Part shown: one piece after another, positions 33,220-64,000 of the stretch
How positions within the stretch are numbered: position 1 is the stretch's first letter
How the letters are laid out: every line of letters starts with the position of its first letter
Source: a virus
DNA length: 64,000 nucleotides
Direction: 5' to 3' (one strand)
IMG/VR virus record: IMGVR_UViG_3300009184_000041
Span: 1-64,000 of that record
Notes under the pieces: generated by a model
The model's input: only the letters and a program-made list of their open reading frames with translations
What the model was told of the DNA's origin: nothing
Database searches by the model: none
Made by a program: the position numbers and the translations under genes

Positions 33220-33223
33220 CACG

Positions 33224-33231: not shown

Positions 33232-33238
33232 AAGGACC

Positions 33239-33996: not shown

Positions 33997-34017
33997 TAGC
34001 AACTAGGAACCTTTGAC

Positions 34018-35805: not shown

Positions 35806-35818
35806 TTAGGAACGAGAT

Positions 35819-36805: not shown

Positions 36806-36824
36806 TTCACTTTCTCTGTATAAT
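36796..36824 (+). promoter_or_regulatory. sigma70-type promoter for the sugar-modification operon
   Basis: A consensus -10 box TATAAT (36819-36824) has a TAGACT hexamer (four of six bases match TTGACA) 17 bases upstream. The -35 box touches the terminator stem. The first gene begins 5 bases after the -10 box, so its message would be leaderless or start at the ATG. The box is of the host type, unlike the TATAAATA boxes of the tail block, so this operon may be expressed before late time. Confidence 0.6.
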
Positions 36825-36829
36825 GCATT

Positions 36830-37138
36830 ATGAATACTGATGCCCTAGTTGCTCACGCACGAGCAAGATTTGATCACGCAGCCGCACGACGGGTGCTGAA
36901 AGAAAAATATCAAGCAAAAATGGTGTTTGCCCATGGCGGCGGAATGTGGCGTGCTGGACCTGAATTGCTGACTGTGTTATTGGCCTGCGCACAAGACAAA
37001 GATGTTGTGATACTAGACTTGTACGAAACCCCAGTAAGGATCACAGTGACAGACTTGTTTGCTAAGGCGCACGAACGTTGGCAAGAACAAATGAACGCAT
37101 GGCAGGTAGAATGGCAAGATTTAAATCAAAAACGTTGA
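36830..37138 (+). CDS. Small protein of unknown function, first gene of the sugar operon
   Basis: 102 residues beginning MNTDALVAHARARFDHAAARRVL. It has an alpha-helical N-terminus, a central FAHGGGMWRAGPELLTVLL segment, a short strand pair (KDVVILDLYETPVRITV) and a Trp-rich helical end. I do not recognise it. It starts directly after a TATAAT box without a visible ribosome-binding site. It overlaps the next gene by 28 bases if that gene starts at 37111. Position suggests late virion or early operon regulation, but nothing in the sequence shows this. Confidence 0.6.
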   Translation: MNTDALVAHARARFDHAAARRVLKEKYQAKMVFAHGGGMWRAGPELLTVLLACAQDKDVVILDLYETPVRITVTDLFAKAHERWQEQMNAWQVEWQDLNQKR

Positions 37139-37932
37139 GTCAAGGTGTGTTGATCTTTGCATTCAACAACGAAGCAACAGATTACATTGCCATGGCTGCT
37201 TGGAGTGCTCGAAACATTCGCAGGCATCTAAACCTGCCAGTGGCCTTGGTCACCGACGATCCAGTGGCAGCCGCACAGTATGATTTTGAACACATCATTT
37301 CAACTGTGCCTGACACTGGTGGGTCACGATACTTTGCTGATTATGATGCCACAGTGACTTGGCACAATGCCGGACGCATTAATGCTTACGAACTGTCGCC
37401 GTTTGAACAAACCTTGGTGCTGGATGCTGACTATGTGATAGCCAGTGATAGATTATTGCAAGTACTAGAACTACCACAACAGTTTGCAGCCTTCAAGGAT
37501 GGATTTGATCCCAGCAGTATGACCAATCTTGACACATTTGGTGCGTACAATATGCCCATGTGGTGGGCCACTGTGATGATGTTCCGTCGTGGCAACATCA
37601 GCCAATACATATTTGATAGTATGCAAATGATACGCAACAACTGGCAACACTACCGTGACTTGTATGGCATTCATCAAAGCAACTATCGCAATGACTATGC
37701 CTTGAGCATTGCCCTGGGCTTGGTAGCAGGTGCTGAACAATCAGTGCATGAGATATTTTTTCCCATGCTCAACGTCATGCCAGATCATGGATTGACCTGG
37801 GTAGAACAAGATCATTATGAAATTGAATACACCAACACTGAAGGTCGACTCAAAACTCTGAGTTGGGCTGGATTAGATTTTCATGCCATGTGTAAAAAAC
37901 ACTTGGAGGTGATAGTTGCAGCCCATGGATGA
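37111..37932 (+). CDS. GT-A-type glycosyltransferase-like protein
   Basis: About 273 residues from the ATG at 37111. A longer frame back to 37078 would overlap the upstream gene by 61 bases. The N-terminus is an alpha/beta nucleotide-sugar-binding type (VLIFAFNNEATDYIAMA, LPVALVTDD). The sequence LSPFEQTLVLDADYV gives a DAD motif at residues 105-107, matching the DxD metal/nucleotide-sugar site of GT-A enzymes such as GT8. The second half has MWWATVMMFRRG and FFPMLNVMPDHG. The next gene is a diverged copy. Donor and acceptor are unknown. A sugar transferase acting in the cytoplasm on a glycan, lipid or virion protein is likely. Confidence 0.6.
   Translation: MARFKSKTLSQGVLIFAFNNEATDYIAMAAWSARNIRRHLNLPVALVTDDPVAAAQYDFEHIISTVPDTGGSRYFADYDATVTWHNAGRINAYELSPFEQTLVLDADYVIASDRLLQVLELPQQFAAFKDGFDPSSMTNLDTFGAYNMPMWWATVMMFRRGNISQYIFDSMQMIRNNWQHYRDLYGIHQSNYRNDYALSIALGLVAGAEQSVHEIFFPMLNVMPDHGLTWVEQDHYEIEYTNTEGRLKTLSWAGLDFHAMCKKHLEVIVAAHG
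37905..37910 (+). promoter_or_regulatory. Strong Shine-Dalgarno GGAGGT deciding a TTG start
   Basis: GGAGGT lies 5 bases before TTG at 37916 but 14 bases before the first in-frame ATG at 37925. Its spacing favours the TTG as start of the downstream gene, inside the end of the upstream gene. Confidence 0.55.
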
Positions 37933-38686
37933 ACAAGGTTACTTAATTGTTGCTGTCAACAGCGACACAGTGGATTATCAGGACTGTGCCCGTACCTTGG
38001 CCAAGACCATACGCTACTGGGATCCGTCAGCACGGATCTGTTTGATAACAGACAGCGAATACACCGATCCCATATACGACCATCACAGACAACTAGTGCC
38101 GCAGGCCAATCCATTTGCCAATGACGCACAGTTATTCAAACTTACCCCATTTCGTGAAACCATCAAACTAGAAGCAGACATGTTTGTTGTAAGTCCCATT
38201 GCACACTGGTGGACGCAGTTTAGACACAAAGATGTTGTGATCTCAACAGGCTGTAGAGACTGGCAGGACCGTGTGAGCACAGCAAGACACTATCGCCGTG
38301 TATTTGATGCCAACAACTTGCCCGATGTTTACAATGCCATCACATACTGGCGGCGCAGTGAAACTGCTCGGGAGTTCTTTGGCTGGGTCAGCAACATATT
38401 TGCCAACTGGGCAGAGTTTAAGAAACTGTTAAAGTTTCCAGATGAGACGCCGTCCACTGACCTGGTATATGCCATGGCAGCAGAGATCATGGGCAGAGAT
38501 CGTGTGACCTTGCCATTCAGTACATATCCACGAATTGTGCATATGAAACGACACATAGCAGGGACGCACACTGAAGCCTGGACTCGAGAACTAGTTTGGG
38601 AATATCAAGACATGCGCCTGCGTGTGCAAACTGTAGCACAAACAGGTGCGTTTCATTACAATGTCAAAGAATGGCGAGCACAATGA
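37916..38686 (+). CDS. Second GT-A-type glycosyltransferase-like protein with ExD in place of DxD
   Basis: 256 residues from a TTG start, or 253 from the ATG at 37925. It parallels the preceding gene: VAVNSDTVDYQDCARTLA, ARICLITDS, then LTPFRETIKLEADMFV, where EAD (residues 86-88) replaces the DAD of its neighbour. Further on are YWRRSETAREFF and TLPFSTYPRIVHMKRH. The tandem arrangement suggests a duplication followed by functional change. The altered acidic triad may change metal use or donor. The stop overlaps the next start (ATGA). Confidence 0.55.
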   Translation: MQPMDEQGYLIVAVNSDTVDYQDCARTLAKTIRYWDPSARICLITDSEYTDPIYDHHRQLVPQANPFANDAQLFKLTPFRETIKLEADMFVVSPIAHWWTQFRHKDVVISTGCRDWQDRVSTARHYRRVFDANNLPDVYNAITYWRRSETAREFFGWVSNIFANWAEFKKLLKFPDETPSTDLVYAMAAEIMGRDRVTLPFSTYPRIVHMKRHIAGTHTEAWTRELVWEYQDMRLRVQTVAQTGAFHYNVKEWRAQ

Positions 38687-39075
38687 AAAAAGTGTTTGTG
38701 AATGGCACATTTGATATCTTGCACCGCGGGCATTTGGAACTGTTGACATTTGCACGAAGTCAAGGCGACTGGTTGACAGTGGCCATTGACAGTGACCGGC
38801 GAGTACAACAATTAAAAGGCCACAGTCGGCCCATAAATGACGCAACAGAACGTGCCAACATGTTGCAACATTTGCGAGCCGTGGATCAAGTCTTGATATT
38901 TGACACTGATGCGGAATTGGTAGAATTTATACAACAACATGACGTCATGGTCAAGGGCAGTGATTACCGCGGTCGACCAATTGTGGGCCAAGACGGTTGC
39001 AAACAACTAATATTTTTTGAGGTAGTCAATGGATACAGCACAACAAACAAAATACAAGATATTATTAATCGGTGA
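38683..39075 (+). CDS. Nucleotidyltransferase, HldE/RfaE domain-II type (ADP-heptose synthase half)
   Basis: 130 residues from the ATG at 38683, coupled by ATGA; the longer frame from 38596 is not needed. The start MKKVFVNGTFDILHRGHLEL has the cytidylyltransferase HRGH motif at residues 14-17. It continues with the RfaE-like pattern SRPINDATERANML and VDQVLIFD. In bacteria this domain adenylylates heptose-1-phosphate to ADP-heptose and is fused behind a kinase domain in HldE. Here the kinase is the next gene. ADP- versus CDP-transfer and the exact sugar are not proven. The product would act in the cytoplasm. Confidence 0.82.
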   Translation: MKKVFVNGTFDILHRGHLELLTFARSQGDWLTVAIDSDRRVQQLKGHSRPINDATERANMLQHLRAVDQVLIFDTDAELVEFIQQHDVMVKGSDYRGRPIVGQDGCKQLIFFEVVNGYSTTNKIQDIINR

Positions 39076-39784
39076 TGCCTGTGAGGACATCTACACATAC
39101 GGATACGTAAACCGCATCAGTCCAGAAGCACCTGTGCCTATCTTTGAACCACATTCGACCATATACCGAGATGGCATGGCTGGAAATGTTCGAAAGAATC
39201 TAGAAGCATTGGGGTGTGAGGTTGACTTCATACGTGGCAAAACTAGCCGAAAGAAACGCCTGATTGATGAACGTACCAAACAACAACTACTGAGACTTGA
39301 TGAGGATGCTGTCAGTGAGCCTGTTACATTTGAAACAGCCATACCTCCCATATACGATGCCATTGTGATCAGTGACTACAACAAAGGCACAGTCAGTTAC
39401 GAACTAATTGAAGAACTGGTTGACGAAGTTGATGTGCCCATTTTTGTTGACACAAAGAAAACAGATCTAGCAAGACTAGCCGGTTGTTATGTGAAGATCA
39501 ATGCACTGGAAAAAAGTCGTGCAACAAGTTTTCCTGACCCAGAACATTTGATTGTCACACACGGCGGCAATGGTGCTTTTTGGAATGGTTGGGTATATCC
39601 TGCTGAAATTGCAGGCGATGTTGTTGATGTATGTGGTGCAGGTGATACGTTTTTGGCAGCACTTGCGTACAAATTTCTAGTGACAAACAACATGCCCACC
39701 GCAGTAAAGTTTGCAAATCAAGCCGCAGCCGTCACGGTGCAACATGTGGGCGTTTATGCACCAAGATTGGACGAAATCAAATGA
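39029..39784 (+). CDS. PfkB-family sugar kinase, HldE/RfaE domain-I type
   Basis: 251 residues. The RfaE signature RISPEAPVPIFE is at residues 29-40, NVRKNLEALG at 53-62, and the catalytic GAGDTFLA at 203-210 with Asp206 as base. The family phosphorylates heptose-7-phosphate to the bisphosphate before the nucleotidyltransferase step. It overlaps the nucleotidyltransferase gene by 47 bases, so the two HldE activities are split and in reversed order. It is slightly shorter than HldE domain I (~310 residues). A related phage substrate cannot be excluded. Confidence 0.82.
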   Translation: MDTAQQTKYKILLIGDACEDIYTYGYVNRISPEAPVPIFEPHSTIYRDGMAGNVRKNLEALGCEVDFIRGKTSRKKRLIDERTKQQLLRLDEDAVSEPVTFETAIPPIYDAIVISDYNKGTVSYELIEELVDEVDVPIFVDTKKTDLARLAGCYVKINALEKSRATSFPDPEHLIVTHGGNGAFWNGWVYPAEIAGDVVDVCGAGDTFLAALAYKFLVTNNMPTAVKFANQAAAVTVQHVGVYAPRLDEIK

Positions 39785-40140
39785 CAAGACTGACAGGCAG
39801 AGTAGAAAAAGGGTGGGGCTCAGAAGAAATTTGGGCAACCAATGATCAGTACTGCGGCAAACTAATGCGGTTTAACACTGGCGCACGTTTCAGCATGCAC
39901 TTCCATGCAGAGAAAGATGAGTCTTGGTATGTGCTCGACGGGCTGTTCCGAGTGGTGTTTATTGAAACAAAGGATGCCAGTCAACACGAAGCCATACTCA
40001 AACCTGGTACTACCTGGCGCAATCGTCCACTACAACCACATCAGTTGATCTGTATCGAAGCCGGTACTATCATTGAAGTCAGTACACCAGACTCAGTAGA
40101 AGACAACTACAGAGTAATGCCCGGAGATAGCCAAAAATGA
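39781..40140 (+). CDS. Cupin protein, mannose-6-phosphate isomerase type II-like
   Basis: 119 residues, a single cupin. The start EKGWGSEEIW and YCGKLMRF match the short cupins seen in LPS and capsule clusters. The metal-ligand motif MHFHAEKDESWYVLDG gives His40, His42 and Glu47, with His80 further on (LQPHQLI). Such proteins act as phosphosugar isomerases or sugar epimerases. Neighbouring HldE genes suggest action on a sugar phosphate. ATGA overlap on both sides ties it to the operon. Confidence 0.65.
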   Translation: MTRLTGRVEKGWGSEEIWATNDQYCGKLMRFNTGARFSMHFHAEKDESWYVLDGLFRVVFIETKDASQHEAILKPGTTWRNRPLQPHQLICIEAGTIIEVSTPDSVEDNYRVMPGDSQK

Positions 40141-40454
40141 AATATATAATTGACATTGACGGTACCGTATGTAACAATACCAACGGCAATTATCATGATG
40201 CTGTTCCGTTCGCGGATAGGATTGATCATTTTAACCGACTGTTTGATCAGGGTCATGAAATACACTATTGGACAGCCAGGGGAGGTAATACCGGCACTGA
40301 CTGGACTGTCCTGACCGCACAACAATTTGCTGACTGGCAAGTAAAGTACACCAGTTTGAGTATGCACAAACCAACTTATGATATTTGGATTGATGACAAA
40401 GCAATCAATGTAGAAAATTATTTTGTAGAGAACGCAGCCAACGATGACACCTGA
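40137..40454 (+). CDS. HAD-superfamily phosphatase
   Basis: 105 residues starting MKYIIDIDGTVCNN, the motif-I DxDGT (residues 6-10). HYWTARGG provides motif II, and PTYDIWIDDKAINV (motif IV) ends the domain. There is no cap domain. Small HADs of this type occur in capsule and LPS clusters. In the heptose pathway a GmhB-type phosphatase is needed between kinase and nucleotidyltransferase, and this gene could fill that step. That substrate is inference from position. Confidence 0.7.
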   Translation: MKYIIDIDGTVCNNTNGNYHDAVPFADRIDHFNRLFDQGHEIHYWTARGGNTGTDWTVLTAQQFADWQVKYTSLSMHKPTYDIWIDDKAINVENYFVENAANDDT

Positions 40455-40779
40455 AGAATTTTGGTCTATATTACATGCAGTGCCCGAACCCGCACAGCCA
40501 TTTTATCGCTTGTACCACAATAACCAAGGCCGGCCACTATTCTACAGCATGGAGGATCGGCCTGGTACATACATTGAGATTGATCAAGAGACATTTGCTC
40601 GTAGCGCCACTAATGTGCGTGTAAAAAACGGTCGGTTAATAGAAATAACGTGGGCAACCACAACAAAATTGGTCCCTGGCAACTCTGGATCCCCTTGTCA
40701 TCCTGACAATGTCGCTGTAATCGTTGCTGAGGACCAACCTCATATCAAATGGAGCAAACGCACATATGAATCAAATTGA
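40444..40779 (+). CDS. Unknown protein in the sugar operon
   Basis: 111 residues, no recognised domain. The start MTPEEFWSILHAVPEP overlaps the upstream gene by 11 bases, and the end overlaps the next start by 14. The sequence is beta-rich with FYRLYHNNQGRPLFYSMEDRPGTYIEID and VRVKNGRLIEI. A small adaptor or regulatory partner would fit, but nothing shows it. Confidence 0.5.
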   Translation: MTPEEFWSILHAVPEPAQPFYRLYHNNQGRPLFYSMEDRPGTYIEIDQETFARSATNVRVKNGRLIEITWATTTKLVPGNSGSPCHPDNVAVIVAEDQPHIKWSKRTYESN

Positions 40780-41692
40780 CATTGCAGACTTGGACTGTGT
40801 ATACCTAAGTTATGATGAACCTGAAAAAGAAGAGTTTTGGGTACGGATCAAAAACATGGTACCATGGGCCACCAGAGTTGATGGCATCAAAGGTTCTGAT
40901 GCAGCACACAAAGCCGCAGCCACAGCCAGCACCACTGAACGTTTTATCTTGATTGATGGTGACAACATTCCAGATGCAGCCTTCTTCAATCAAACACTGA
41001 CGTTTGACACGCCAGACTGGGAACAGGCAGTGTTTCGTTGGCGTGCCAGAAATCACATCAACGGACTCATGTACGGCAATGGTGGCTTGAGTTCATGGAC
41101 CCGTGAGTTTGTGTTCAACATGCGCACACATGAAGCCACTGATGGACGTGTGGAAACAGAAGTGGAGTTTTGTTTTGATCCCTTGTACTGGCCCATGTAT
41201 GACTGCTACTCGACTACGTATCCTAATGGGTCAGCATTTCAAGCATGGCGTGCTGGCTTCCGTGAAGGCGTAAAAATGTGCCTGAACCGAGGGGCAAAGC
41301 CCACAGTGGAAGAATTTCAACAACAAGTACATCAACGCAACCTAGATCATTTGACCATATGGCACAACATTGGTGCTGACGTCAACAACGGTCAGTGGGC
41401 CATGGCTGGCGCTAGACAAGGCACATACATGACCATGCTCACAAACTGGGATCACCGACTGGTACAAGACTTTGATGCTCTAGCCGAGATATGGGAAACT
41501 GTAAAAGATGCAGAACCAAGGCTGTTGGGCGGGCGTGTGGCAGATGATTTGCACGGTCAACTGGACTTGCCCATGGCCATATTTGAAGGCGAACAAAGTC
41601 GGTTTTTCAAACAACACTATCGATCAAACTGGCACAATCGTGGTCTCATGGTTAGAGAGATTGATGTTATCAGACAGCAAGAAGGCTGGTAA
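40766..41692 (+). CDS. Glycosyltransferase-like protein (GT-A type), related to the 667-aa repeat protein
   Basis: 308 residues from the ATG at 40766. The N-terminus CVYLSYDEPEKEEFW, DGIKGSDAAHKAA and ERFILIDGDNIPD contains a DGDN motif (64-67) where GT2-like enzymes have DxD. The second half (NHINGLMYGNGGLSSW, then FQAWRAGFREGVKMCL) has a clear counterpart in the C-terminus of the protein at 58892-60895 (NPVNGLVYGHQAM, CWRTAFREVLKL). The two therefore share a catalytic-type domain. Acceptor and donor are unknown. It is joined to the next gene by TAATG. Confidence 0.6.
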   Translation: MNQIDIADLDCVYLSYDEPEKEEFWVRIKNMVPWATRVDGIKGSDAAHKAAATASTTERFILIDGDNIPDAAFFNQTLTFDTPDWEQAVFRWRARNHINGLMYGNGGLSSWTREFVFNMRTHEATDGRVETEVEFCFDPLYWPMYDCYSTTYPNGSAFQAWRAGFREGVKMCLNRGAKPTVEEFQQQVHQRNLDHLTIWHNIGADVNNGQWAMAGARQGTYMTMLTNWDHRLVQDFDALAEIWETVKDAEPRLLGGRVADDLHGQLDLPMAIFEGEQSRFFKQHYRSNWHNRGLMVREIDVIRQQEGW

Positions 41693-42627
41693 TGTATATT
41701 TTAGGATGTACAAGTGATCGTATATGGAATATTCCAGCATTGATTCAATACCTTACACACCGCCAATGCCAACCGATTATCATTGATATCCAGCCCGAAG
41801 CAATATGTTTACATAATCTTGGATTGTATGATATACTAGATTGTTTTAATTTTGAATCAGTGACCATACACACTTGGAATCCGCTTGAAACACATCCTCA
41901 ATATACCGTTAAGTATAAAGGTAAAAACTTTTGGTTTGATCGTCAAGCAGATATAACAGATACTCAACGTGAATACACTGGGGCAAAAACTTTTTTGTGC
42001 TTGTACCATAGGCCCACTGCCGGACGACTAGCACTAGCTGGATACCTACAGCAATATTATGCCAATTCGAGCCTTATTCATTTTAGCACTAGTACAACAT
42101 ATGACAATCTTATTCAATTTGAGTTTGATAAACTACTAAGTTGGCATTTGCCAAGTGTATCAAATGCAAGTAAATTATTGTCACAGTTGCCTATATTATT
42201 ATTGTCTAATAATCAGTACACAAGCACTCAAGGATATTTTTATAATGATCCGTTAACTAACTTATATCGTGATATTTTAATTGATGTGGTAGTAGAAAGT
42301 CATGTGATTGGTAATACATTTTTTCCTACAGAAAAAACTGTAAGACCTATGTTGTTAGGAAAACCTTTTTTGGCATTTGCCAGTGTTGACTATTTGGCAT
42401 ATTTGCGTCAAATGGGATTTAGAACTTTTGCAGATTTTTGGTCTGAAGATTACGACGGCTACGAGGGAAGAGAAAGATTGGTTAGAATGTTAGCAGTCAT
42501 AGATGAAATATCTGCTCTGACTGCTAACCAGCGAGAAACAATGTTTTGGGACATGCAATATACTTTGCAACATAACCGCCAGATACTATTACAACAATCT
42601 TGGAACAATACCATTACAAAAATATGA
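41692..42627 (+). CDS. TEKTxKPI-family protein (putative glycosyltransferase), copy 2
   Basis: 311 residues. The family block lies at about 195-255: IDVVVES, FFPTEKTVRPM, GKPFLAFASVDYLAYLRQMGFRTFADFW and SEDYD. The N-terminal 150 residues are specific to this copy (YILGCTSDRIWNIPALIQYL). The sequence is AT-rich. It is followed by a radical SAM gene with an ATGA overlap, a pairing that repeats twice more in this window. Family assignment is by the shared motif, and transferase function is inference from the GT10-like TEK loop and the sugar context. Confidence 0.6.
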   Translation: MYILGCTSDRIWNIPALIQYLTHRQCQPIIIDIQPEAICLHNLGLYDILDCFNFESVTIHTWNPLETHPQYTVKYKGKNFWFDRQADITDTQREYTGAKTFLCLYHRPTAGRLALAGYLQQYYANSSLIHFSTSTTYDNLIQFEFDKLLSWHLPSVSNASKLLSQLPILLLSNNQYTSTQGYFYNDPLTNLYRDILIDVVVESHVIGNTFFPTEKTVRPMLLGKPFLAFASVDYLAYLRQMGFRTFADFWSEDYDGYEGRERLVRMLAVIDEISALTANQRETMFWDMQYTLQHNRQILLQQSWNNTITKI

Positions 42628-44021
42628 ACAAAGGTGACGAATCAGTAGACAACAAAAGCAAGTTTCTTAGCTCTGCCGAGCTGATGAAGGAACAACTGGG
42701 TCCTGCACTGTGCCTGGCAAAATGGAAACAGGTAAGTTTGCATTTACCCACCGGGCTCAACAACAGTTGTTATCATCCTCCCTTGCACCCAATTAATCCT
42801 GCAGAAATTGCAATAGATGTGTCAGCATTGCACAACACCGCACACAAAAAACAACAACGCCAAATGATGTTGACAGGAGAAAAACCCACGGAATGCCAGT
42901 ACTGCTGGAACATGGAAGATGCGGGCAAACTAAGTGACAGACACTATCGTTCAGGCGAGCCCTGGGCCTCAATGGATTTTGAATCAATAAAGACGAGCAC
43001 AGGAGAAGAAAATGTTATCCCCAGTTATGTTGAAGTTAATTTTAATCACGCTTGTAATCTTAAGTGTAGTTATTGTAGCCCTCAGTTTTCGAGCTCATGG
43101 GCAGATGAGGTTGCACGACTGGGCGCTTTTCCTACTAGCAGTCCACACAACTCTCCTGATCATTTTATGGGCCAGCGTAGACCAATTCCAGTCAGAGACA
43201 CCAACCCTTATGTTGAGGCCTTCTGGCAATGGTGGCCAGACTTGTACCCTCACCTAAAACATTTTCGCATGACTGGTGGTGAGCCATTGCTGGACAAAAA
43301 TACCTATCGTGTGTTTGATTACGTGTTGGCCATGCCTAATCCTCAACTACATTTGAATGTCACAAGTAACTTTTCAGTAGATGAAAAGTCATGGCAAAAG
43401 TATTTGACCTATGTCAAAGCCATATGCGATGGACGCATTGAACACTTCATGCAGTATGTGAGCCTGGATGGTTGGGGCGAGCAAGCAGAGTACATGCGCC
43501 ATGGCCTGGACTTTGACTTGCTGTGGGATCGAGTAAATCAATTCTTAACTGAAGTACCCAACTACTCAAGTCTTACATTTATCATCACAATGAACAACTT
43601 GAGTGTCACGAGTTTAGACAAACTGTTTGCTGGCATACTGGGCTTGAGAAAAGTGTACAGCACGGACTATCAACGTGTGTGGTTTGACACACCGGTGTTG
43701 CGCGAGCCTGCCTGGCAGAGTCTACAGATATTGCCCGAAAGTTATGCTGAACGACTGGAATGGCTATGGGCTTGGATGGTGCGACAGATTGAAACTGAAG
43801 AGGCACCGTTCAAAGGATTCAAAGATTACGAACTGCACAGATTGGATCGTGACATTGCTTGGATGCGATCAGCACAGTTAGAAAATCACCATCAAGCCAA
43901 GGCAGACTTTTATCGTTTCTTCAGTGAACATGATCGTCGCCGTGGCACAGATTTCTTGAAGACATTTCCTGAAATGCGATCATGGTGGGAGGAGTGTGCA
44001 TACCATGCTAGGCAATCGTAA
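42624..44021 (+). CDS. Radical SAM protein with N-terminal twitch-type cysteines, subgroup A
   Basis: 465 residues from the ATG at 42624. The [4Fe-4S]/SAM motif CNLKCSYC has cysteines at 144, 148 and 151, followed by MTGGEPLL, a GGE motif. Before it is a second cysteine set (NNSCYHPP near 42 and TECQYCW near 92-95) that fits the N-terminal twitch type, in which an auxiliary cluster precedes the radical SAM barrel. The close relative at 45101-46438 shares SCxHPP and SPQFSSSW-type sequences. The reaction is unknown. It is coupled to TEKTxKPI genes on both sides and is larger than minimal radical SAM enzymes. Confidence 0.8.
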   Translation: MNKGDESVDNKSKFLSSAELMKEQLGPALCLAKWKQVSLHLPTGLNNSCYHPPLHPINPAEIAIDVSALHNTAHKKQQRQMMLTGEKPTECQYCWNMEDAGKLSDRHYRSGEPWASMDFESIKTSTGEENVIPSYVEVNFNHACNLKCSYCSPQFSSSWADEVARLGAFPTSSPHNSPDHFMGQRRPIPVRDTNPYVEAFWQWWPDLYPHLKHFRMTGGEPLLDKNTYRVFDYVLAMPNPQLHLNVTSNFSVDEKSWQKYLTYVKAICDGRIEHFMQYVSLDGWGEQAEYMRHGLDFDLLWDRVNQFLTEVPNYSSLTFIITMNNLSVTSLDKLFAGILGLRKVYSTDYQRVWFDTPVLREPAWQSLQILPESYAERLEWLWAWMVRQIETEEAPFKGFKDYELHRLDRDIAWMRSAQLENHHQAKADFYRFFSEHDRRRGTDFLKTFPEMRSWWEECAYHARQS

Positions 44022-46438: not shown

Positions 46439-46441
46439 GCC

Positions 46442-49550: not shown

Positions 49551-49584
49551 ACTGATTTATTGTAACAGGAATTGAAAAGATATT

Positions 49585-53780: not shown

Positions 53781-53878
53781 ATTGGATACGCAGACTTTGG
53801 GCAAGAATCACACTGGAAATTCGTTATCGTAAAAAATTAAAAGAACTTCGCAAACGAGATCCGTTTATCTACAAATGA
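53777..53878 (+). CDS. 33-residue basic protein before the carbamoyltransferase
   Basis: ATG at 53777 follows AAGGAG (53765-53770) by 6 bases, a near-ideal ribosome-binding site. The frame ends with TGA at 53878 and overlaps the carbamoyltransferase start (ATGA). The product MNWIRRLWARITLEIRYRKK continues with LKELRKRDPFIYK: about one third of its residues are Arg or Lys, and the N-terminus looks amphipathic. It may be a membrane-surface anchor or a partner of the enzyme. The strong signal and coupling make it a real gene despite its length. Confidence 0.7.
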   Translation: MNWIRRLWARITLEIRYRKKLKELRKRDPFIYK

Positions 53879-55350: not shown

Positions 55351-55574
55351 AATCAGCAAAACAACATCTAAAAGATTCGCAAATGGGCTACTGGACTCAT
55401 CTGGCACACAGCTTTCGACAAAGCAATAGGCTGATAGCCATTGCTGTCAAAAGTTACATACATGGCATATTGCCTTGGTTCTTTGCCAACCGTGGACCTG
55501 TGGGGGTGTTCAAGATCTACAGAGAGATCCGTAACCAGCGCCACATTAGAAAAATACTAGACGGTCAAAGGTAA
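55347..55574 (+). CDS. Small DUF6356-like membrane-associated protein
   Basis: 75 residues, coupled by ATGA to the carbamoyltransferase. MGYWTHLAHSFRQSNRLIAIAVKSYIHGILPWFFANRGP resembles short proteins often placed beside carbamoyl or lipid modification genes (DUF6356 from memory). A hydrophobic IHGILPWFFA stretch suggests one membrane-contacting segment, and the tail is basic. It ends the plus operon and overlaps the opposite-strand amidinotransferase by 10 bases. Confidence 0.6.
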   Translation: MKSAKQHLKDSQMGYWTHLAHSFRQSNRLIAIAVKSYIHGILPWFFANRGPVGVFKIYREIRNQRHIRKILDGQR

Positions 55575-56602: not shown

Positions 56603-57746
56603 TGATTTCCTTGATTAGGGTATTTAAACGGTCGGTCTTGCTGGCTTGAAATAACTGCTGGTTGTGTTCAATGTCCGCACGACACAATTCAAACAGTTGT
56701 GGTAAATCTGGCTGAGTAAAAAATATAGATCGAGTCAATGCCTGCCAACGTTGTGTAGCATTGAGCTCCAAGTCATAACTGTTGTCCAACACTGAGTCAA
56801 ACACACGATATCCCAGATCACGCAATACCTGTAGACTGCCCGCAGGGCCTGCAATAAAAAACATTTGTCCATGTTTGATGGGTTTGAACGTTTTTTCAGT
56901 TAAAAATGTTCCACTAGTACCAATGTCAAAGTGTGTTTCCATCACAATGTTGCAATAACTGTTGATATGATATTTGGATATCAGTGTGCTGTGATTGTTG
57001 CGTTGATCAAAATCCAGTTCATCACTGATGTAAGGTGCATGTTGTAAAAACTCTTCTGTGCGTGTGCGCAGTCTAGCAATAGAATCAATTTCAATAGCAC
57101 ACTCTGCATCTACAAATTCTCCAGTCTCGCAGTAACTCCAATACGAGTTATCTAGTATTCCGTTGTGTCGCAAATCTGCCATGGCCATGGCACGCCAACT
57201 CTTGTGCAGTCTGTTGAGCACAGTAAAGTCACGCTCTCTTGGGTTATGATGTATCCTTAATGCAGGACTAGCACGATTGCGTTGATAGTACCAGAGTTCA
57301 AAGTCTGCAAAGTACACAAAGTTTGATAATTCTTTGGCAGCAGTATTGCCACTAACAAATTTGTAACAGTTGTTGCGCAAATTATGTTTGGTGCATAATT
57401 CGTCTAATCTAGATTTGATATGGGACGGGTCATCGCCTTCGTGGTAGTAAAATAACACACGCACATCATCAAAAAACAATCCGGCACGTATGCGTTCAGG
57501 CAAGAGTTCAAAGTAATCAATGCCGAAGTCGAAGAACCCCAATCCCACAGGATACAATGCATCAGACGGCCATTCAGAATTGATGTCCGTGATGTTTAGT
57601 TCGACCCCATGAGCAACACAATATTCTTGCAGTCGCAAAGGCACAGTATAAGGATAATGCTGATCAAAGTCACGGCTTTGCGTTTGAGCCAGTGCAGGAT
57701 ATATCTTACCCCCGACTATTCGGTCCGCTATCAAATTCAATGTCAT
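56589..57746 (-). CDS. TEKTxKPI-family protein (putative glycosyltransferase), copy 5
   Basis: 385 residues. The block is at about 275-330: YCNIVMETHF, TFLTEKTFKPI, MFFIAGPAGSLQVLRDLGYRVF and LDNSYD. Upstream is FTVLNRLHKSWRAMA, the NR motif. This copy has MFFI in place of PFVI and DNSYD in place of DESYD, so it is more diverged. It overlaps the upstream family copy by 41 bases, an unusually long overlap, and a later start may be used. Confidence 0.6.
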   Translation of the reverse strand: MTLNLIADRIVGGKIYPALAQTQSRDFDQHYPYTVPLRLQEYCVAHGVELNITDINSEWPSDALYPVGLGFFDFGIDYFELLPERIRAGLFFDDVRVLFYYHEGDDPSHIKSRLDELCTKHNLRNNCYKFVSGNTAAKELSNFVYFADFELWYYQRNRASPALRIHHNPRERDFTVLNRLHKSWRAMAMADLRHNGILDNSYWSYCETGEFVDAECAIEIDSIARLRTRTEEFLQHAPYISDELDFDQRNNHSTLISKYHINSYCNIVMETHFDIGTSGTFLTEKTFKPIKHGQMFFIAGPAGSLQVLRDLGYRVFDSVLDNSYDLELNATQRWQALTRSIFFTQPDLPQLFELCRADIEHNQQLFQASKTDRLNTLIKEINESH

Positions 57747-58893
57747 TTAACATGCCCTGAAGTTCTTGCCATAATATTTGTTCAAACCCGCCGCCGTAAA
57801 AGTGATTCCAGTTGTGTTTGACAATGTCCCATGCGCTGTCAAATATGGCTTGACGATATTCTCCCAACTCATCCAACAGTTTCAGCGTGTGCGCAATCTT
57901 TTCTATACGCTTTGAATCATCTGGTTCATCATCATAACTTTCGTCCCACAAGTCACCAAACGTTTGGAATCCATAACTGCGCAGATACCGCAAACTGCCT
58001 TGTGTGCCCACAATCACAAACGGCATACCCAGGGCAATGGGTTTGAATGTCTTTTCAGTCAAGTGGTGTCTGCGTCCTGTGGCCACAGTTTCGGTAACCA
58101 AGTATAACAGACTCTCAGCAGATTGGTCAAACAAACTGAGCCAACATGAATGCATGGGATGATCGGTTTCACCCTCAAAGTTTCGTGGCAATGATTGTTG
58201 GGCAAACACTGTTTCAATGTCAGGATACTTGTTTTTAAGAGGTTGTACAGCATCTAGTATGGCAATGTTTTCTGCAGGGCACACAGCAGGGCATGACACG
58301 TGATTGTTGTGCATGCCTAATTTAAAAATCCAGTACAGCATTTCCAATCTATGCTTGCGCTCTCCGGCCACAATGCGATTGGGTGCTAAAAAAGTACGAG
58401 TGATTTGTCGTTGTTTGGGCGGAGTAATTAAAAAAGTCTTGTCATATCCGCGATACCAATCCAGTGCTGCCCAACCGTGAAAAAAATAATAGTAATGTTG
58501 CCAACCAAATTTTTTACACACTGTATCTACAGTGTCACTGTCACGTTCACTGGTAATAATTGCGCCGACTGTTCGATTGGTCTTTAAGGATTTGCTGTAG
58601 CCAGAATCTAAAGCCATCTGATTCAATTGATTGCGACGATCTATCACATTGTGTAAACTTTGATTTTTCACTACAACTTCTTCAAACGTAGGCATGTGTA
58701 CGTTCAAATGAATAGGCTCTTGATCCCATAATAGTGTATAATTGTGTTCAACTAGATCATCGCTGCCATAATTAACTAGACTGTCAGGATCTGTTCTACC
58801 AAAAGGTTCACACCACCATAATCTCACACCAGGGTGATGACGTTTGATCCAAGGCCAGATTGTGTTATCATAAATCTCATCTATTCTAAGCAT
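57706..58893 (-). CDS. TEKTxKPI-family protein (putative glycosyltransferase), copy 6, full-length reference copy
   Basis: 395 residues, the most complete copy. WDQEP is at 56-60, APNRIVAGERKHRLEM at 170-185, LVTETV at 265-270, TEKTFKPI at 279-286, PFVIVG at 291-296, GSLRYLRSYGFQTF at 299-312 and DESYD at 317-321. It is useful for judging the split copy at 1588-2698. The start ATG sits in CATG shared with the divergent plus gene at 58892, so no promoter gap exists between them. The family resembles GT-B transferases in its TEK loop. Confidence 0.62.
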   Translation of the reverse strand: MLRIDEIYDNTIWPWIKRHHPGVRLWWCEPFGRTDPDSLVNYGSDDLVEHNYTLLWDQEPIHLNVHMPTFEEVVVKNQSLHNVIDRRNQLNQMALDSGYSKSLKTNRTVGAIITSERDSDTVDTVCKKFGWQHYYYFFHGWAALDWYRGYDKTFLITPPKQRQITRTFLAPNRIVAGERKHRLEMLYWIFKLGMHNNHVSCPAVCPAENIAILDAVQPLKNKYPDIETVFAQQSLPRNFEGETDHPMHSCWLSLFDQSAESLLYLVTETVATGRRHHLTEKTFKPIALGMPFVIVGTQGSLRYLRSYGFQTFGDLWDESYDDEPDDSKRIEKIAHTLKLLDELGEYRQAIFDSAWDIVKHNWNHFYGGGFEQILWQELQGMLNDIEFDSGPNSRG

Positions 58894-60895
58894 GTTTGAC
58901 GTATTTTATTTTAGTGATGGGCGTAAGCCAAATTTGTTCCCACACGAGCGATCGGTGGATTCCGTCCAGCATGCACAGAAGTTGAGCCGCACACGATTTT
59001 TCTGGATTGTCCATTACTTAGCGGATTACACAGACTGGGACTGGCTTTTTGAACCCCTACCCTGGCAAGCAGATCAACGGCATGCCTGGGCCAGTCAATG
59101 GCAGTCAGATTCGGGCACATACCTTGTGCCATGTGCAGGCTATGAACACACAAACTATCACACAGATCGTGTCATAACAAGACTCAGCAGCCGTGATGGT
59201 TGGCACATACCCTCAAACATAGACACAGACAGTTTTGACTTTTCATGGCATCCTTTGCCCAGCGATCACTATCGGCATCACTTTCCCACACAATGGCAGA
59301 CAGCAGGCGGACCTGTGTATAATTCGGGCGCTGACACAATCAAAATGGAAACCGCCCAGTATGCAGTAGCAAGGCCTACCAAAAAGTGCTGGACTGTGCC
59401 TGCAGGAGTTGAACCTGTAGATCAGTCATGGCACCCAAATCCTTTTGATCCACCCTACCGATATCAGTTCGGCACACAGCATCAACGCACTGGTGGCCCA
59501 GTTTACACTGTGCCTGGTGCAACAGAAGTAAAATATGTGGATCAGATACGTGCCACAACCAACAGAGTGGCCACTGCCGTATATGAAATAGATCACATGT
59601 GTGGGTCAGCAGGGCAAATATCTGGTACCACACGCACTGTGCGTTACTTTGACAACTACAGAGATACCTTGATACGCATTGCCAAGAGCATAGGTACCGA
59701 ACATGAGTTTGTGTGGGTATGCTCAAGTATTTGTGATTACACTGGCTTTGATTTTTCGTGGCATCCTGAGCAATGGCAGGCCACAATGTTGCATGTGTTC
59801 CGATCTAACGATCAAAAGTTTGGTGATACATTCTTCATGCATGTGCCTACCTTTGCTGTGAGAGCAGAAAAGAAAGAACTGCTGGAATGGTATGACATAA
59901 ACTTTGTTGACGTCAGTGTGCCACGCAATGCCATGCCTGTGATTGTGCATAGCGGTGACAGTCAAGTTGACGCTGTAAAGAACATAGAGTGGACAGGACC
60001 CTTGGCCACCTTTACCAACTACGATTACGTGCCCGGCGATCTTGTGACTGTGCCACTGTGGCGTGAACAAACCAAAGCCATTGTGCCCATCAGTGACGGT
60101 GCTGGCACAGTTGTAGTGCCACGTACCGCTGTGCCTTATATCAAAACACAGTTGTATGACTACGCTCATATAGACCGTACACAACGCCTGCTGAAAGATC
60201 CCCTGCTGGACATTGTGTTCATCAGCAATGGTGAAATAAATGCCGACATTTACTTTGAACATTTGGAATACACAGCCCACGACGCAAATCATAAAAATCT
60301 CATGCATCATGTGTCGGGCGTGAATGGCCGTGTGGCAGCATATCAAGCGGCTGCCAGACAAAGCACTACGCCTTGGTTTTTTGCTGTGTTTGCCAAACTA
60401 GAAGTCACTAGAGATTTTGACTGGTCCTGGCAACCTGATCGCATGCAACAGCCCAAACACTATATTTTTCATGCACACAATCCTGTGAACGGATTGGTAT
60501 ATGGGCACCAAGCCATGATTGCTTACAACAAGCAGCTGGTGTTGGAGAATACTGGGCAAGGATTAGACTTTACCTTGGACCAACCACATGAAGTTGTGCC
60601 CATTGTGTCGGGCACAGCCATGTATCATGATTCAGACTGGATGTGCTGGCGTACTGCATTCCGTGAAGTGCTCAAGCTCATGAGTGGTCCGCCGGATGTA
60701 GAAAACGAATATCGTTTACAGCAATGGCTCCTGGTTGATACCACAGAAGGGCAATGGAGTCGCAAAGGTGCAGAAGATGGTGTGGAGTACTATGACTCAG
60801 TTGCGGGCGACTTTGCGGCGCTGAAAAAGAGTTATGAGTGGGAGTGGTTGGCCACGTATGCGTTTGTCAAACGGAATCTATTAACGAATCAATAA
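58892..60895 (+). CDS. 667-aa repeat protein with glycosyltransferase-like C-terminus
   Basis: Five imperfect units share a FDxSWxP core followed by an aromatic and a GxxY-type end. They start near 59030 (DWDWLFEP), 59235 (FDFSWHP), 59425 (QSWHPNP), 59745 (FDFSWHP) and 60415 (FDWSWQP). Units 2 and 3 share QxxGGPVY. The C-terminal ~200 residues (VSGVNGRVAAYQAAARQSTTPWFF, NPVNGLVYGHQ, WRTAFREVLKL) match the protein at 40766-41692 and look like a transferase domain. The repeat part may bind glycans or a polymer. The gene is divergent from 57706-58893 and overlaps the aminotransferase gene at its end. Confidence 0.6.
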   Translation: MFDVFYFSDGRKPNLFPHERSVDSVQHAQKLSRTRFFWIVHYLADYTDWDWLFEPLPWQADQRHAWASQWQSDSGTYLVPCAGYEHTNYHTDRVITRLSSRDGWHIPSNIDTDSFDFSWHPLPSDHYRHHFPTQWQTAGGPVYNSGADTIKMETAQYAVARPTKKCWTVPAGVEPVDQSWHPNPFDPPYRYQFGTQHQRTGGPVYTVPGATEVKYVDQIRATTNRVATAVYEIDHMCGSAGQISGTTRTVRYFDNYRDTLIRIAKSIGTEHEFVWVCSSICDYTGFDFSWHPEQWQATMLHVFRSNDQKFGDTFFMHVPTFAVRAEKKELLEWYDINFVDVSVPRNAMPVIVHSGDSQVDAVKNIEWTGPLATFTNYDYVPGDLVTVPLWREQTKAIVPISDGAGTVVVPRTAVPYIKTQLYDYAHIDRTQRLLKDPLLDIVFISNGEINADIYFEHLEYTAHDANHKNLMHHVSGVNGRVAAYQAAARQSTTPWFFAVFAKLEVTRDFDWSWQPDRMQQPKHYIFHAHNPVNGLVYGHQAMIAYNKQLVLENTGQGLDFTLDQPHEVVPIVSGTAMYHDSDWMCWRTAFREVLKLMSGPPDVENEYRLQQWLLVDTTEGQWSRKGAEDGVEYYDSVAGDFAALKKSYEWEWLATYAFVKRNLLTNQ

Positions 60896-61964
60896 CATAC
60901 TCAACTTCCAAGTCTGTCAGTTCAGGATAGATAGGAAGTGAAAGGCATCTACGTGCCAGACTGCTGCCAGCACTTAGCAAATCCGGACACGGATAGTGTT
61001 GATATGCTGGCAATTCATGCATGGGTGTTGCATAGTGTACTCGGGTTTCAACACCACGCAAGGCAAGATTGCGTTGTAAGATGTCTCGATTGTCCGCATG
61101 GATCACAAACTTGTGAAAGCAATGTGTTTCAAAGTTTGAATCATCAATTAAACAAGTGACATCTGGATGTTTTTTTAACATTTCCACCCAGTGATAAGCA
61201 ATGGTGCGTCTGCGTTGTTGCCACTGATCAATGTAGCGAGTTTTTACCAACATCTGCGCACAGTCAATCTCACTCATTCTGCTGTTGGTGCCTGTCTCAG
61301 CATGATTGGTACGCTTGCCATTGCTGACCCAGTTCCGAGCAAACTCCATCAAGTTGCGACTGGCAGTGACTATGGCACCACCATTGCCATAGTTGGCTAG
61401 ATTTTTTGTGGGGTCAAAACTGATGGCGCAATCGCCCGCACGTTGACATTTGTTGCTGAGCCAATGTTGTGCACCATCTTCTATAATGGGATGAGTTAAT
61501 GACCACACACTTTGTTTCATTTCGTTAAGTGCTTGACCATACAACCCCACAGCACAAATAGCTTGTATATCTGTGCTGTGCGCAAGTTTGGTCATGTCCA
61601 TGATGCCATATTGATCGGTGTCCACAATGTGCAGGTTCCACCCTGCTCGAACAAATGCGTTGAGGGTGGCTGGATACGTCAAGGTAGGTACAGCCACTGT
61701 AGGTGTGTCAGGTCGACCTGCTTGCAGCATGTGCCACTCAGCAATGATTTCCAAGGCCTGTGTGCCAGAGTGGCAGGTCACAGCGTAGGGTTGGTGGTTG
61801 CGACGAGCCAGCCAATCTTCAAATTCATAGGTATAGTTACCACTCATGAGTTGACCTGAACGCAACACAGTATCTGTTGCGTCCAAGACCTCGGTGCGGA
61901 GATTGTTATACTGTCGTCGGATTCCAATAAACGGAACTGTTAAGCCATTCAATTTATTCTCCAA
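60867..61964 (-). CDS. DegT/DnrJ/EryC1/StrS-type sugar aminotransferase
   Basis: 365 residues. The PLP lysine is Lys187 in SFDPTKNLANYGNGG. EDGAQH (162-167) holds the cofactor-contacting Asp, and the start (VPFIGIRRQYNNLRTEVL) and SGTQALE are family traits. The class transfers an amino group from glutamate or glutamine to a keto-sugar or keto-inositol. It follows the amidinotransferase on the same strand with a 16-base overlap. Together they would make an amine and then a guanidino group. The substrate is not identified. Confidence 0.88.
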   Translation of the reverse strand: MENKLNGLTVPFIGIRRQYNNLRTEVLDATDTVLRSGQLMSGNYTYEFEDWLARRNHQPYAVTCHSGTQALEIIAEWHMLQAGRPDTPTVAVPTLTYPATLNAFVRAGWNLHIVDTDQYGIMDMTKLAHSTDIQAICAVGLYGQALNEMKQSVWSLTHPIIEDGAQHWLSNKCQRAGDCAISFDPTKNLANYGNGGAIVTASRNLMEFARNWVSNGKRTNHAETGTNSRMSEIDCAQMLVKTRYIDQWQQRRRTIAYHWVEMLKKHPDVTCLIDDSNFETHCFHKFVIHADNRDILQRNLALRGVETRVHYATPMHELPAYQHYPCPDLLSAGSSLARRCLSLPIYPELTDLEVEYVIDSLIDSV

Positions 61965-62968
61965 AATACACCATTCTCTCCTCTGTTGGGGAATAAATCT
62001 TTAGGTGTATCTTCTCGGTGTACGTCTAGCGTAAAGCAATGCCAACCTCCGTCCCAGAAACTTCTAGTTCGTAGATCAAAAAAGTGAACGGTAATACCAC
62101 GTTTGTCTAGCCATTGAGTCAAAGGAGGATAATCTTTCATAGCAACAACATTCTTTTCATCAAGCACTAACATATTAACTTCAAATACTGTTTCTCTAAA
62201 GTTACCTATCCAATTTTGTGCTACTGTTTGTAAATGTTGGTCAAATGCTTTATTTCCGTCTATTGATAAGTCATTGGCCGTCCATTTTTTTGTATGTCGA
62301 AAATTATGTAAATTATTAGGAATTTTAAATACTTCCCATCCTGGAAAACTTTGACTATAGTCAGTTTTATAATGGGTTGATACAATCAGACCAGGCGACA
62401 CCGGGCAGAAAACACCATCACTGTGTCCGTCGGTGTTGGATATGTTAACTCTATATTTACGCCCAAGTTGATTAACTAGACACTCACAAACAAACCCCCA
62501 AACATGTTTGTGACTCTCAATATCTATAATTATATCTTTACCTAGTCTCACCAGTGCTGGTGGGTGTACACAATTTATAGGTTGATCTTTGGGTGTCAAT
62601 ACATCTAACCCCTGTTGTTGATAATACTCTAACCAATGATACCATGGATCAATTTTTAAATTATTATGTAAACTATATAGAGTTTTGTCTAACACCAAGT
62701 AATCATCTCTTGGTGTTACTGGAGGCTTGGACAATGTACCATTATCATTGATATGATTATCAATGCTTGTAAACACAGGTCGTCTTACTACAATTCCTCT
62801 TGATTCTAAAAATGTCTGTAGCCGCCTGGTGTCTTCTTGAGTCCACGCAGTTATTTGTCTAAATGGGTCAGCAATCTCGTTGGGCAAATGATCGTAATAC
62901 GACTCTGGATAGCAGTCACCAAGCCATACTTCTCGAAGTGGTGTAAATCCAAAGTTCGAATTGATCAT
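61949..62968 (-). CDS. Amidinotransferase 2 (glycine/inosamine amidinotransferase family)
   Basis: 339 residues. Catalytic-type motifs: TDGHSDGVF with His182, ETVFEVNMLVLDE (259-271) and FWDGGWHCFT with Cys311. It shares these with copy 1 but is diverged elsewhere, and its gene is more AT-rich. Copy 2 has WHC before the nucleophile where copy 1 has ISC. It lies between a sugar epimerase (ATGA overlap) and an aminotransferase, the most telling context for a guanidino-sugar step. The donor is presumably arginine. Confidence 0.88.
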   Translation of the reverse strand: MINSNFGFTPLREVWLGDCYPESYYDHLPNEIADPFRQITAWTQEDTRRLQTFLESRGIVVRRPVFTSIDNHINDNGTLSKPPVTPRDDYLVLDKTLYSLHNNLKIDPWYHWLEYYQQQGLDVLTPKDQPINCVHPPALVRLGKDIIIDIESHKHVWGFVCECLVNQLGRKYRVNISNTDGHSDGVFCPVSPGLIVSTHYKTDYSQSFPGWEVFKIPNNLHNFRHTKKWTANDLSIDGNKAFDQHLQTVAQNWIGNFRETVFEVNMLVLDEKNVVAMKDYPPLTQWLDKRGITVHFFDLRTRSFWDGGWHCFTLDVHREDTPKDLFPNRGENGVFWRIN

Positions 62969-63927
62969 TTGCCAGCCCAGTAAACGCTATTTGTAAGCCA
63001 CTCATAATACTTTTGGAATCCTTGTTCTACGTCTACTTTGGGATCAAAACTCAAGATGGTTCTAGCTCGATCAATGTTTAATGCGCCACGGCTGGGAAAG
63101 TCTGCGTCCTTGTCACGCACTTCAATAGTGCCTTTGCCCACAATCTTCACAATCATTTCTGCTGCTTCCAACAGACTCACTGAATGTGACTTGGTAATGT
63201 TGAATGTCATGTTGCGGCACATGATGCGTGTGGCGGCAGCAACAATGCCATCGGCAGCATCATCCACATAGGTAAAGTCTAAGGTTTCATTTGCTCCATT
63301 AACTCGGAGCACTCCGCCGCGCATTGCTGTGAGCATGAATTTGGCAACGACTCGGTCTTCAACATCAAGTGGCCCATAAACAGCACTGGGACGGATAATA
63401 ACATACTCAAAGCCACAACGGCGACTATAATCTTTGACAAGGTCTTCTCCACATAGTTTCATTATTCCATACTGTCCTTGCGGACGGCATTCGTCATCTT
63501 CCAGCACTTGGTCTTCAAAGTCTCCGTACACCATACTGCTACTGATGTACACAAATCGTTCAATCCGGTGTTTTTTGGCACTCTCAAGCAAGTTGATCAG
63601 GCCACGCATCATGACATCTGCGCCATGAGCAGGGTTGGCATTGACCACTTTCTGTCGGGGAAAACTGGCACAGTGGATAATAACTTTTGGCTGTTCTTTA
63701 CCAATCACATAGTCCACAGCGTCTGTGTTTGTGATGTCTGTGTTGTACACAGGATGATTGTTGATCTTGGCCAAGCGTTCGGCCATCAAGTAGTTTATTT
63801 CTGCTTGTGGAATGATACCATAAGTGGTCTTGGTATCCATGATCATGGTTTTCTCACCACGTGCTTGTAGACGTTGTACTATGTTGTGACCAATAAGGCC
63901 AAGGCCGCCTGTTACTAAAAATGTCAT
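62965..63927 (-). CDS. NAD-dependent sugar epimerase/dehydratase (extended SDR)
   Basis: 320 residues. GGLGLIG (7-13) binds NAD. SSSMVYGDF, YGIMK (Tyr and Lys of the catalytic dyad) and IIRPSAVYGP are classical for UDP-glucose 4-epimerase and relatives. LDFTYVDDAADGI is the C-terminal signature. It likely epimerises or oxidises an NDP-sugar to supply the keto-sugar for the downstream aminotransferase. The stop overlaps the amidinotransferase start (ATGA), and its own start overlaps the partial upstream gene. Confidence 0.85.
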   Translation of the reverse strand: MTFLVTGGLGLIGHNIVQRLQARGEKTMIMDTKTTYGIIPQAEINYLMAERLAKINNHPVYNTDITNTDAVDYVIGKEQPKVIIHCASFPRQKVVNANPAHGADVMMRGLINLLESAKKHRIERFVYISSSMVYGDFEDQVLEDDECRPQGQYGIMKLCGEDLVKDYSRRCGFEYVIIRPSAVYGPLDVEDRVVAKFMLTAMRGGVLRVNGANETLDFTYVDDAADGIVAAATRIMCRNMTFNITKSHSVSLLEAAEMIVKIVGKGTIEVRDKDADFPSRGALNIDRARTILSFDPKVDVEQGFQKYYEWLTNSVYWAGK

Positions 63928-64000
63928 ACTAGATTTCTTTCTTTTATAAATGGTACAATCACTTGTTCAACAAACAATTTGTGTTGTGGGTTGCTGGGAT
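63924..64000 (-). CDS. C-terminal end of an unidentified gene, runs off right edge
   Basis: On the minus strand the third frame stays open from the edge to a TGA that overlaps the epimerase ATG (ATGA). Only about 24 residues are visible, ending HKLFVEQVIVPFIKERNLV. This is too short to assign. The coupling suggests it is the previous gene of the epimerase-aminotransferase operon. Confidence 0.5.
   Translation of the reverse strand, partial: PSNPQHKLFVEQVIVPFIKERNLV

Follow-up and report, generated by a model that had tools for sequence, protein, structure and literature searches.

Gene content, gene order and a possible role in glycoconjugate synthesis of a fibre-adjacent radical SAM cassette in uncultured T4-like phages

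The uncultured virus record IMGVR_UViG_3300009184_000041 (70,252 bp), of which positions 1–64,000 constitute the window analysed here, carries at 36830–63927 a conserved block of some twenty enzyme genes adjoining the tail-fibre genes, and the question is what this cassette makes and onto which molecule. It is composite, with a fixed core of glycosyltransferases (GTs), five radical S-adenosylmethionine (rSAM) enzymes, the protein g20, a peptide of 33 residues, a carbamoyltransferase, a giant GT, an aminotransferase and a short-chain dehydrogenase/reductase (SDR), and with exchangeable tailoring slots. The initial annotation had proposed a pathway for a guanidinylated and carbamoylated sugar. 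From it we retain a phage-borne amino-sugar route with carbamoyl-transfer and amidino-transfer-like steps, and all enzyme classes it named are intact open reading frames (ORFs); the rSAM array, the micropeptide and an independent promoter had been missed, and the account was to that extent incomplete. The genes are listed below, where TEKT denotes a family of GT-B-like proteins sharing the motif TEKTxKPI, and AT1 and AT2 the two amidinotransferase-like proteins.

36830–37138, plus strand: g01, small gene conserved among relatives
37117–37932, plus strand: g02, GT-A-like with DAD motif, core, conserved, no Pfam family
37925–38686, plus strand: g03, GT-like, core, conserved, weak PHROG match only
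38674–40454, plus strand: g04–g07, heptose-type nucleotidyltransferase (g04), PfkB kinase (g05), cupin (g06) and haloacid dehalogenase-like (HAD) protein (g07), lineage-specific insert
40444–40779, plus strand: g08, small gene conserved among relatives
40763–41692, plus strand: g09, GT-A-like with DGD motif, core, conserved, homologous to the C-terminus of g26
41692–42627, plus strand: g10, GT-B-like TEKT family, variable (alignment A1)
42627–44021, plus strand: g11, twitch rSAM (NF033640, 321 bits)
43996–45108, plus strand: g12, GT-B-like TEKT family (TEKT alignment)
45101–46438, plus strand: g13, twitch rSAM (NF033640, 290 bits)
46442–47077, plus strand: g14, no family assigned, variable
47074–48336, plus strand: g15, twitch rSAM (NF033640, 390 bits)
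48333–49550, plus strand: g16, twitch rSAM (NF033640, 341 bits)
49585–50550, plus strand: g17, SDR nucleotide-sugar epimerase (PF01370, 1.5e-45), variable insert present in few relatives
50547–51488, plus strand: g18, GT-B-like TEKT family (TEKT alignment), variable
51485–52762, plus strand: g19, twitch rSAM (NF033640, 267 bits), the best-conserved rSAM
52755–53780, plus strand: g20, phage-specific fold, core in freshwater clades
53777–53878, plus strand: 33-residue micropeptide MNWIRRLWARITLEIRYRKKLKELRKRDPFIYK, its start overlapping the g20 stop and its stop the g21 start
53875–55350, plus strand: g21, NodU/TobZ-type carbamoyltransferase (PF02543 and PF16861)
55347–55574, plus strand: g22, DUF6356, optional
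55565–56602, minus strand: g23, AT1, amidinotransferase-like by profile homology and catalytic residues
56589–57746, minus strand: g24, GT-B-like TEKT family (TEKT alignment), travels with AT1
57706–58893, minus strand: g25, GT-B-like TEKT family
58892–60895, plus strand: g26, tandem GT-like protein, core, 532–1855 residues in relatives
60867–61964, minus strand: g27, DegT sugar aminotransferase
61949–62968, minus strand: g28, AT2, amidinotransferase-like, rare insert
62965–63927, minus strand: g29, SDR nucleotide-sugar enzyme (PF01370, 3e-42)

Related loci were compared through three anchors: AT1, the carbamoyltransferase and the peptide. With AT1 as anchor, the order ThyX, SDR, DegT, g26, g25, g24, AT1, carbamoyltransferase, g20, rSAMs is found in about 75 loci. 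Among the 46 full loci anchored on the carbamoyltransferase, g26 is present in 45, g19, g20 and g16 in 42, DegT in 41 and the SDR in 39, and AT1 in 20. The left part is equally regular, since the order fibre genes, g01, g02, g03, g08, g09, rSAMs is fixed in all 18 long contigs and is found in marine contigs too. The genes g04–g07 lie between g03 and g08, where 18 of 18 long relatives lack them, and relatives of g04–g06 are found at another locus (L152); the heptose genes are an insert and were rejected as part of the core. The amidinotransferases were likewise rejected as the heart of the system: a single pathway with two of them, as initially proposed, is not upheld, AT1 being optional (28 of 52 peptide-anchored loci, about half) and AT2 being found in few related loci. 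The slot beside AT1 may also hold methyltransferase, 2-oxoglutarate-dependent oxygenase-like, sulfotransferase-like and halogenase genes, and in a sister clade the slot of AT1 is occupied by an adenosine phosphosulfate (APS)-kinase-like gene. A functional swap between AT1 (23 loci) and the latter (20 loci), which never occur together, is not claimed, the pattern being confounded with clade. In L164, L166, L173, L187 and L211 the APS-kinase-like gene directly follows the carbamoyltransferase and is sometimes fused to a cytidylyltransferase-like domain, and in L204 and L207 (11476–14182) tryptophan-halogenase-like and AMP-ligase-like genes are inserted beside AT1.

The five twitch enzymes (g11, g13, g15, g16 and g19) form the backbone of the cassette; they score 267–390 bits against the NCBIfam model NF033640 (cut-off 170 bits) and each has the CX3CX2C motif, which together defined the assignment. 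At least ten transferase-like genes had been counted initially; five of these are the rSAM genes, and nine genes (g02, g03, g09, g10, g12, g18, g24, g25 and g26) are supported as GT-like, most of them outside any Pfam family. The TEKT members g10, g12, g18, g24 and g25 constitute one family, and no function was obtained when the TEKT and rSAM alignments were searched against PDB and Pfam. An AlphaFold2 model of g25 (pLDDT 89) matches mostly GT-B folds in Foldseek, weakly (best E 3.4e-3, TM 0.34). The carbamoyltransferase, recognized earlier as NodU/CmcH-type, has both Carbam_trans domains above cut-off (N 122.4 and C 161.4 bits), and the pyridoxal phosphate (PLP)-dependent sugar aminotransferase is the DegT protein g27 (PF01041, 8.3e-54), with its PLP lysine, Lys187, in PTKN. 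The two SDRs named before are g17 and g29, and the heptose-type nucleotidyltransferase and kinase were also correctly identified. The cupin and HAD genes are intact, but g06 falls slightly under the Pfam cut-off and g07 is assigned through PHROG only. The model of g20 is confident (pLDDT 87) and has no structural match in PDB; its matches are to phage proteins only, these fold neighbours being uncharacterized and one of them coming from Agrobacterium phage Atu_ph07.

Could the many bacterial-type enzymes reflect an assembly join with a bacterial contig, the alternative named beforehand in the initial annotation? Positions 1–36775 are T4-like, with genes for recombination and for the baseplate wedge, a 5,169-residue structural protein and the fibre genes s8–s10. 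Among cultured phages, the wedge protein is closest to those of Sinorhizobium phage Phosso and Atu_ph07, at 34% identity. Downstream of the cassette are ThyX and a metallopeptidase/VWA gene, and since both also follow it in relatives the cassette is not a join. More than 100 independent IMG/VR contigs, the longest of 364 kb, share its gene order, which refutes a join and leaves it a negligible probability. This order, together with a ratio of nonsynonymous to synonymous polymorphism (pN/pS) of 0.06–0.26 for most core genes, indicating purifying selection, also shows that the arrangement is not due to chance.

The elements that determine its transcription lie at the border with the fibre genes:

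17710–36775, plus strand: tail-fibre module with the giant 5169-residue structural protein, s8, s9 and s10 (PHROG virion and tail matches; order kept in 18 of 18 long contigs; context)
33989–33996, plus strand: T4-type late promoter TATAAATA, 22 nt ahead of s9
36781–36797, plus strand: intrinsic-terminator hairpin closing the fibre operon (-13.1 kcal/mol, z -3.0)
36796–36824, plus strand: σ70-type promoter of the cassette, TAGACT-17-TATAAT, extended -10, with conserved -10

The late promoter is exact at 8 of 20 s9 orthologues, with near variants at most others, and occurs 10 times on the plus strand versus once on the minus strand in 462 kb. Between s10 and g01, a strict terminator stem is found in 14 of 19 genomes. 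In this interval the window, each of the 18 long relatives and three marine contigs also have a TATAAT-type -10, separated by 17 nt from a weak -35 (with the variants TACAAT or TAAAAT in 2 of 19 genomes). No conserved promoter element was found ahead of six other cassette genes, and with the conserved -10 this makes it very likely, as predicted from sequence, that the cassette has its own promoter for the host RNA polymerase. Co-transcription with the tail operon is ruled out by the conserved terminator and promoter.

From gene content, order, intactness, enzyme families and promoter conservation, we infer a cytoplasmic glycoconjugate pathway that could build a heavily modified sugar, carbamoylated and in some loci guanidinylated, and transfer it onto a phage-made polypeptide, most likely the tail fibre and possibly the micropeptide. 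The predicted pathway is well supported at the level of enzyme families; for its target, virion fibre glycosylation is our first choice, tentatively held at somewhat less than an even chance. The SDR g29 and DegT g27 would yield a nucleotide-linked amino sugar, and the twitch enzymes might perform hard C-H steps (dehydrogenation, epimerization or deoxygenation) like BtrN-like twitch enzymes in aminoglycosides. The carbamoyltransferase would add O-carbamoyl groups, AT1 might in one sub-lineage convert an amine into a guanidine, and the GT-A-like and GT-B-like enzymes would transfer the sugars in the cytoplasm, the likeliest acceptor being the tail-fibre protein encoded directly upstream. Expression may be early, and as the block has its own σ70 promoter a sugar pool could be ready ahead of late virion assembly. 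The exchangeable slots would make the decoration differ by lineage, as expected of a surface under changing selection. Fibre glycosylation is favoured by the fixed order next to fibre genes, the near-universal core enzymes, the variable decoration slot, the purifying selection, the conserved promoter and the weak GT-B placement of g25, and no transmembrane segment, flippase or ligase was found in the cassette proteins. Several points weigh against it. No acceptor was identified, the terminator and promoter separate transcription of the cassette from that of the fibre genes, several of the GT genes lack a known family, Foldseek support for GT-B is weak, the carbamoyltransferase is linked most tightly to the micropeptide and not to a fibre gene, and the position of Asp254 in AGAT (Asp in HsvA too) aligns with Ser in AT1 and with His in AT2. 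Should the proposed pathway operate, viruses would be making elaborately tailored sugars or peptides by reactions otherwise familiar from the natural products of bacteria, and the location of rSAM arrays next to tail-fibre genes in several T4-like lineages would be accounted for.

The amidinotransferase-like proteins, 30% identical to each other, have no match in Pfam, but phmmer relates them to human AGAT (1.4e-15 for AT1 and 1.6e-8 for AT2) and also to HsvA, StrB and SxtG. The profile of alignment A7 shows full-protein homology in PDB to AGAT (1.5e-29), HsvA (1.9e-26), SxtG (7.8e-26) and StrB (2e-22). The Cys and His motifs noted before correspond to Cys330/His191 in AT1 and Cys311/His182 in AT2; in AT1, Cys330, His191 and Asp193 are invariant in 19 sequences and are the counterparts of C407, H303 and D305 in AGAT. 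At the position of Asp254, which we take to be the triad acid, AT2 and distant phage relatives have His or Cys, and because this acid is replaced AGAT-like catalysis cannot be assumed, hence the label amidinotransferase-like; amidination of an acceptor by AT1 or AT2 is a putative function deduced from the sequences. AT1 has a pN/pS of 0.06–0.11 and is the most conserved protein of the loci that contain it (median identity 83%; carbamoyltransferase 67%, ThyX 70%). Twitch rSAM genes are usually nearby also in distant amidinotransferase-like loci, amidinotransferase-like genes are present in 16 of 20 long records (70–364 kb), several copies in some, and about five occur in one 345-kb phage contig (the record of L204, G014). 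A GTDB scan with AT1 gave no bacterial relative, and the closest bacterial amidinotransferases are Streptomyces inosamine-phosphate types (23–26% identity). This similarity, and the co-occurrence of amidino-, amino- and carbamoyl-transfer in aminoglycoside clusters, could suggest a secreted aminoglycoside-like compound, as had been considered initially. We regard that as highly improbable because aminoglycoside-core enzymes, transporters and flippases are lacking, and no cyclitol (2-deoxy-scyllo-inosose type) synthase, exporter or resistance gene was found among the scanned cassette ORFs.

An apparent gap of 94 nt ahead of the carbamoyltransferase contains the micropeptide gene, unrecorded in any annotation. 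Its C-terminus YRKKLKELRKRDPFIYK is almost invariant, and homologues end with KRDPFIYK or close variants; of its last 21 residues, ten (DPFIY included) are the same in all 104 nucleotide haplotypes, while synonymous codons vary freely. The peptide is encoded on at least 305 IMG/VR contigs; it belongs to no PHROG or Pfam family, and INPHARED gave no match for it at E 1. The comparison covered 150 loci that contain a carbamoyltransferase and extend at least 3 kb upstream of it. In 141 of them the peptide gene lies within 6 kb of the carbamoyltransferase gene on the same strand, with none farther off in 4.95 Mb; unrelated phages and bacteria are among the nine loci that lack it. The rSAM g19 and g20 accompany it in 80 of 80 peptide loci. 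In the pyrroloquinoline quinone (PQQ) and mycofactocin pathways, a short conserved peptide encoded beside rSAM enzymes with SPASM/twitch clusters is processed by these enzymes, and in mycofactocin it is glycosylated. The linkage, conservation and overlapping gene boundaries described above could thus mean that the peptide is a ribosomal scaffold or acceptor, which the rSAMs, the carbamoyltransferase and the GTs turn into a cofactor, signal or effector in this manner; this is our second choice, a possibility that we consider rather unlikely. Against it, the trio of peptide, carbamoyltransferase and g26 occurs also without the flanking rSAM core (L222–L224, L232 and L234), neither a RiPP recognition element (RRE) nor a peptidase was recognized in Pfam and NCBIfam scans, g20 matches no known fold, and the micropeptide could be a small adaptor instead. 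The cassette further differs from PQQ and mycofactocin in having five rSAMs, a carbamoyltransferase, DegT and many GTs, and in that its peptide is tightest to the carbamoyltransferase. In a narrower form, held still more tentatively, the peptide would become a conserved glycopeptide that acts as cofactor or effector and carries an added guanidine in one lineage, and would represent a viral natural-product class not known so far. An amphipathic membrane helix was rejected for the micropeptide, as the signal was not above that of shuffles.

The cassette is found in hundreds of uncultured giant phages, most of them from freshwater. In 20 records of 70–364 kb, 5–19 twitch rSAMs are encoded per record (8–19 in the 19 long ones), and the order of fibre, GT and rSAM genes is identical in marine phage contigs binned into metagenome-assembled genomes (MAGs). 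The core module was not found among 50,697 phage records. Related rSAM arrays are encoded on Bacteriovoracales chromosomes (63 of 129 genomes above cut-off), accompanied by g09-like GTs and carbamoyltransferases and once with an AT2-like gene between the rSAMs. Together with the σ70-type promoter, which fits early expression, and with O-antigen modification being a known theme in phages, these arrays speak for a modification of the host lipopolysaccharide or capsule early in infection, leading to superinfection exclusion or receptor masking. Neither a flippase, a polymerase or a ligase nor any membrane protein is encoded in the cassette, and no lipid-carrier transferase was found in it; we rank this third and think it improbable. 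In the predatory Bacteriovoracales (L245 and L275–L290) the twitch arrays are long, with eight genes on one MAG contig, some beside g09-like GTs.

Hypermodification of DNA bases with sugars or guanidino groups might be suspected from the GT-B-like paralogues and the nearby thymidylate synthase ThyX, as T4-type phages glycosylate their DNA. A PF00303-type (dCMP/dUMP) hydroxymethylase is absent in 17 of 20 long records, which also counts in favour of fibre glycosylation, the three positive records have one PF00303-type gene each, possibly an ordinary thymidylate synthase, and the cassette contains no base-specific kinase or glycosylase, making DNA modification very improbable.

Open-licence papers were searched for this combination as a whole and for RiPPs (ribosomally synthesized and post-translationally modified peptides) of phages, and nothing relevant was found. 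The composition appears to be undescribed, as initially stated, but partial precedents exist. The interchangeable cluster of Campylobacter phages CP220 and CPt10 contains five rSAM genes and a putative glycine amidinotransferase (Timms 2010, PMC2853527). These phages are also T4-like and the exchangeable cluster is near tail genes, but no carbamoyltransferase or peptide is reported and their amidinotransferase is about 24% identical to AT2. As tblastn of g13 and g19 against INPHARED gave no match in a Campylobacter phage, the likeness to this Firehammervirus cluster is, judged from sequence, one of composition and not of a homologous rSAM set. In Atu_ph07 and Phosso the order gp6, giant gene, s8, s9 is followed by 3–4 annotated radical SAM/oxidoreductase genes, and Atu_ph07 encodes a g20-fold protein, but these rSAMs match the twitch profile only marginally, and no carbamoyltransferase, amidinotransferase or DPFIY peptide was found at the locus. 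With its rSAM array at the same locus, the cultured Atu_ph07 (host Agrobacterium tumefaciens C58) makes the question testable together with the invariant peptide. Twelve rSAM genes occur in the T4-like environmental genome TARA_ERS488813_N000010 (Nishimura 2017, PMC5332604), which shares the rSAM expansion, but there they are reported in an Fe-S context, and a sugar cassette is not described. Cyanophages and Pelagibacter phages encode NodU/Nol-like carbamoyltransferases with two domains like g21 (28–37% identity for HTVC008M and C48C1), but the micropeptide is absent beside both examples examined.

Some further observations concern the surroundings. The ORF of the giant structural protein (17710–33219) is located between gp6 and the fibre genes, and its relatives have 4,449 residues in Atu_ph07 and 4,555 in Phosso. 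The genes g25 and g26 are divergent and their starts overlap at 58892–58893, so the promoters of both must lie within neighbouring coding sequence. Finally, an 8-kb single-cell contig (L238, Marine virus AG-345-D19) encodes an amidinotransferase-like protein, a divergent DPYIY peptide, a carbamoyltransferase and an rSAM together.

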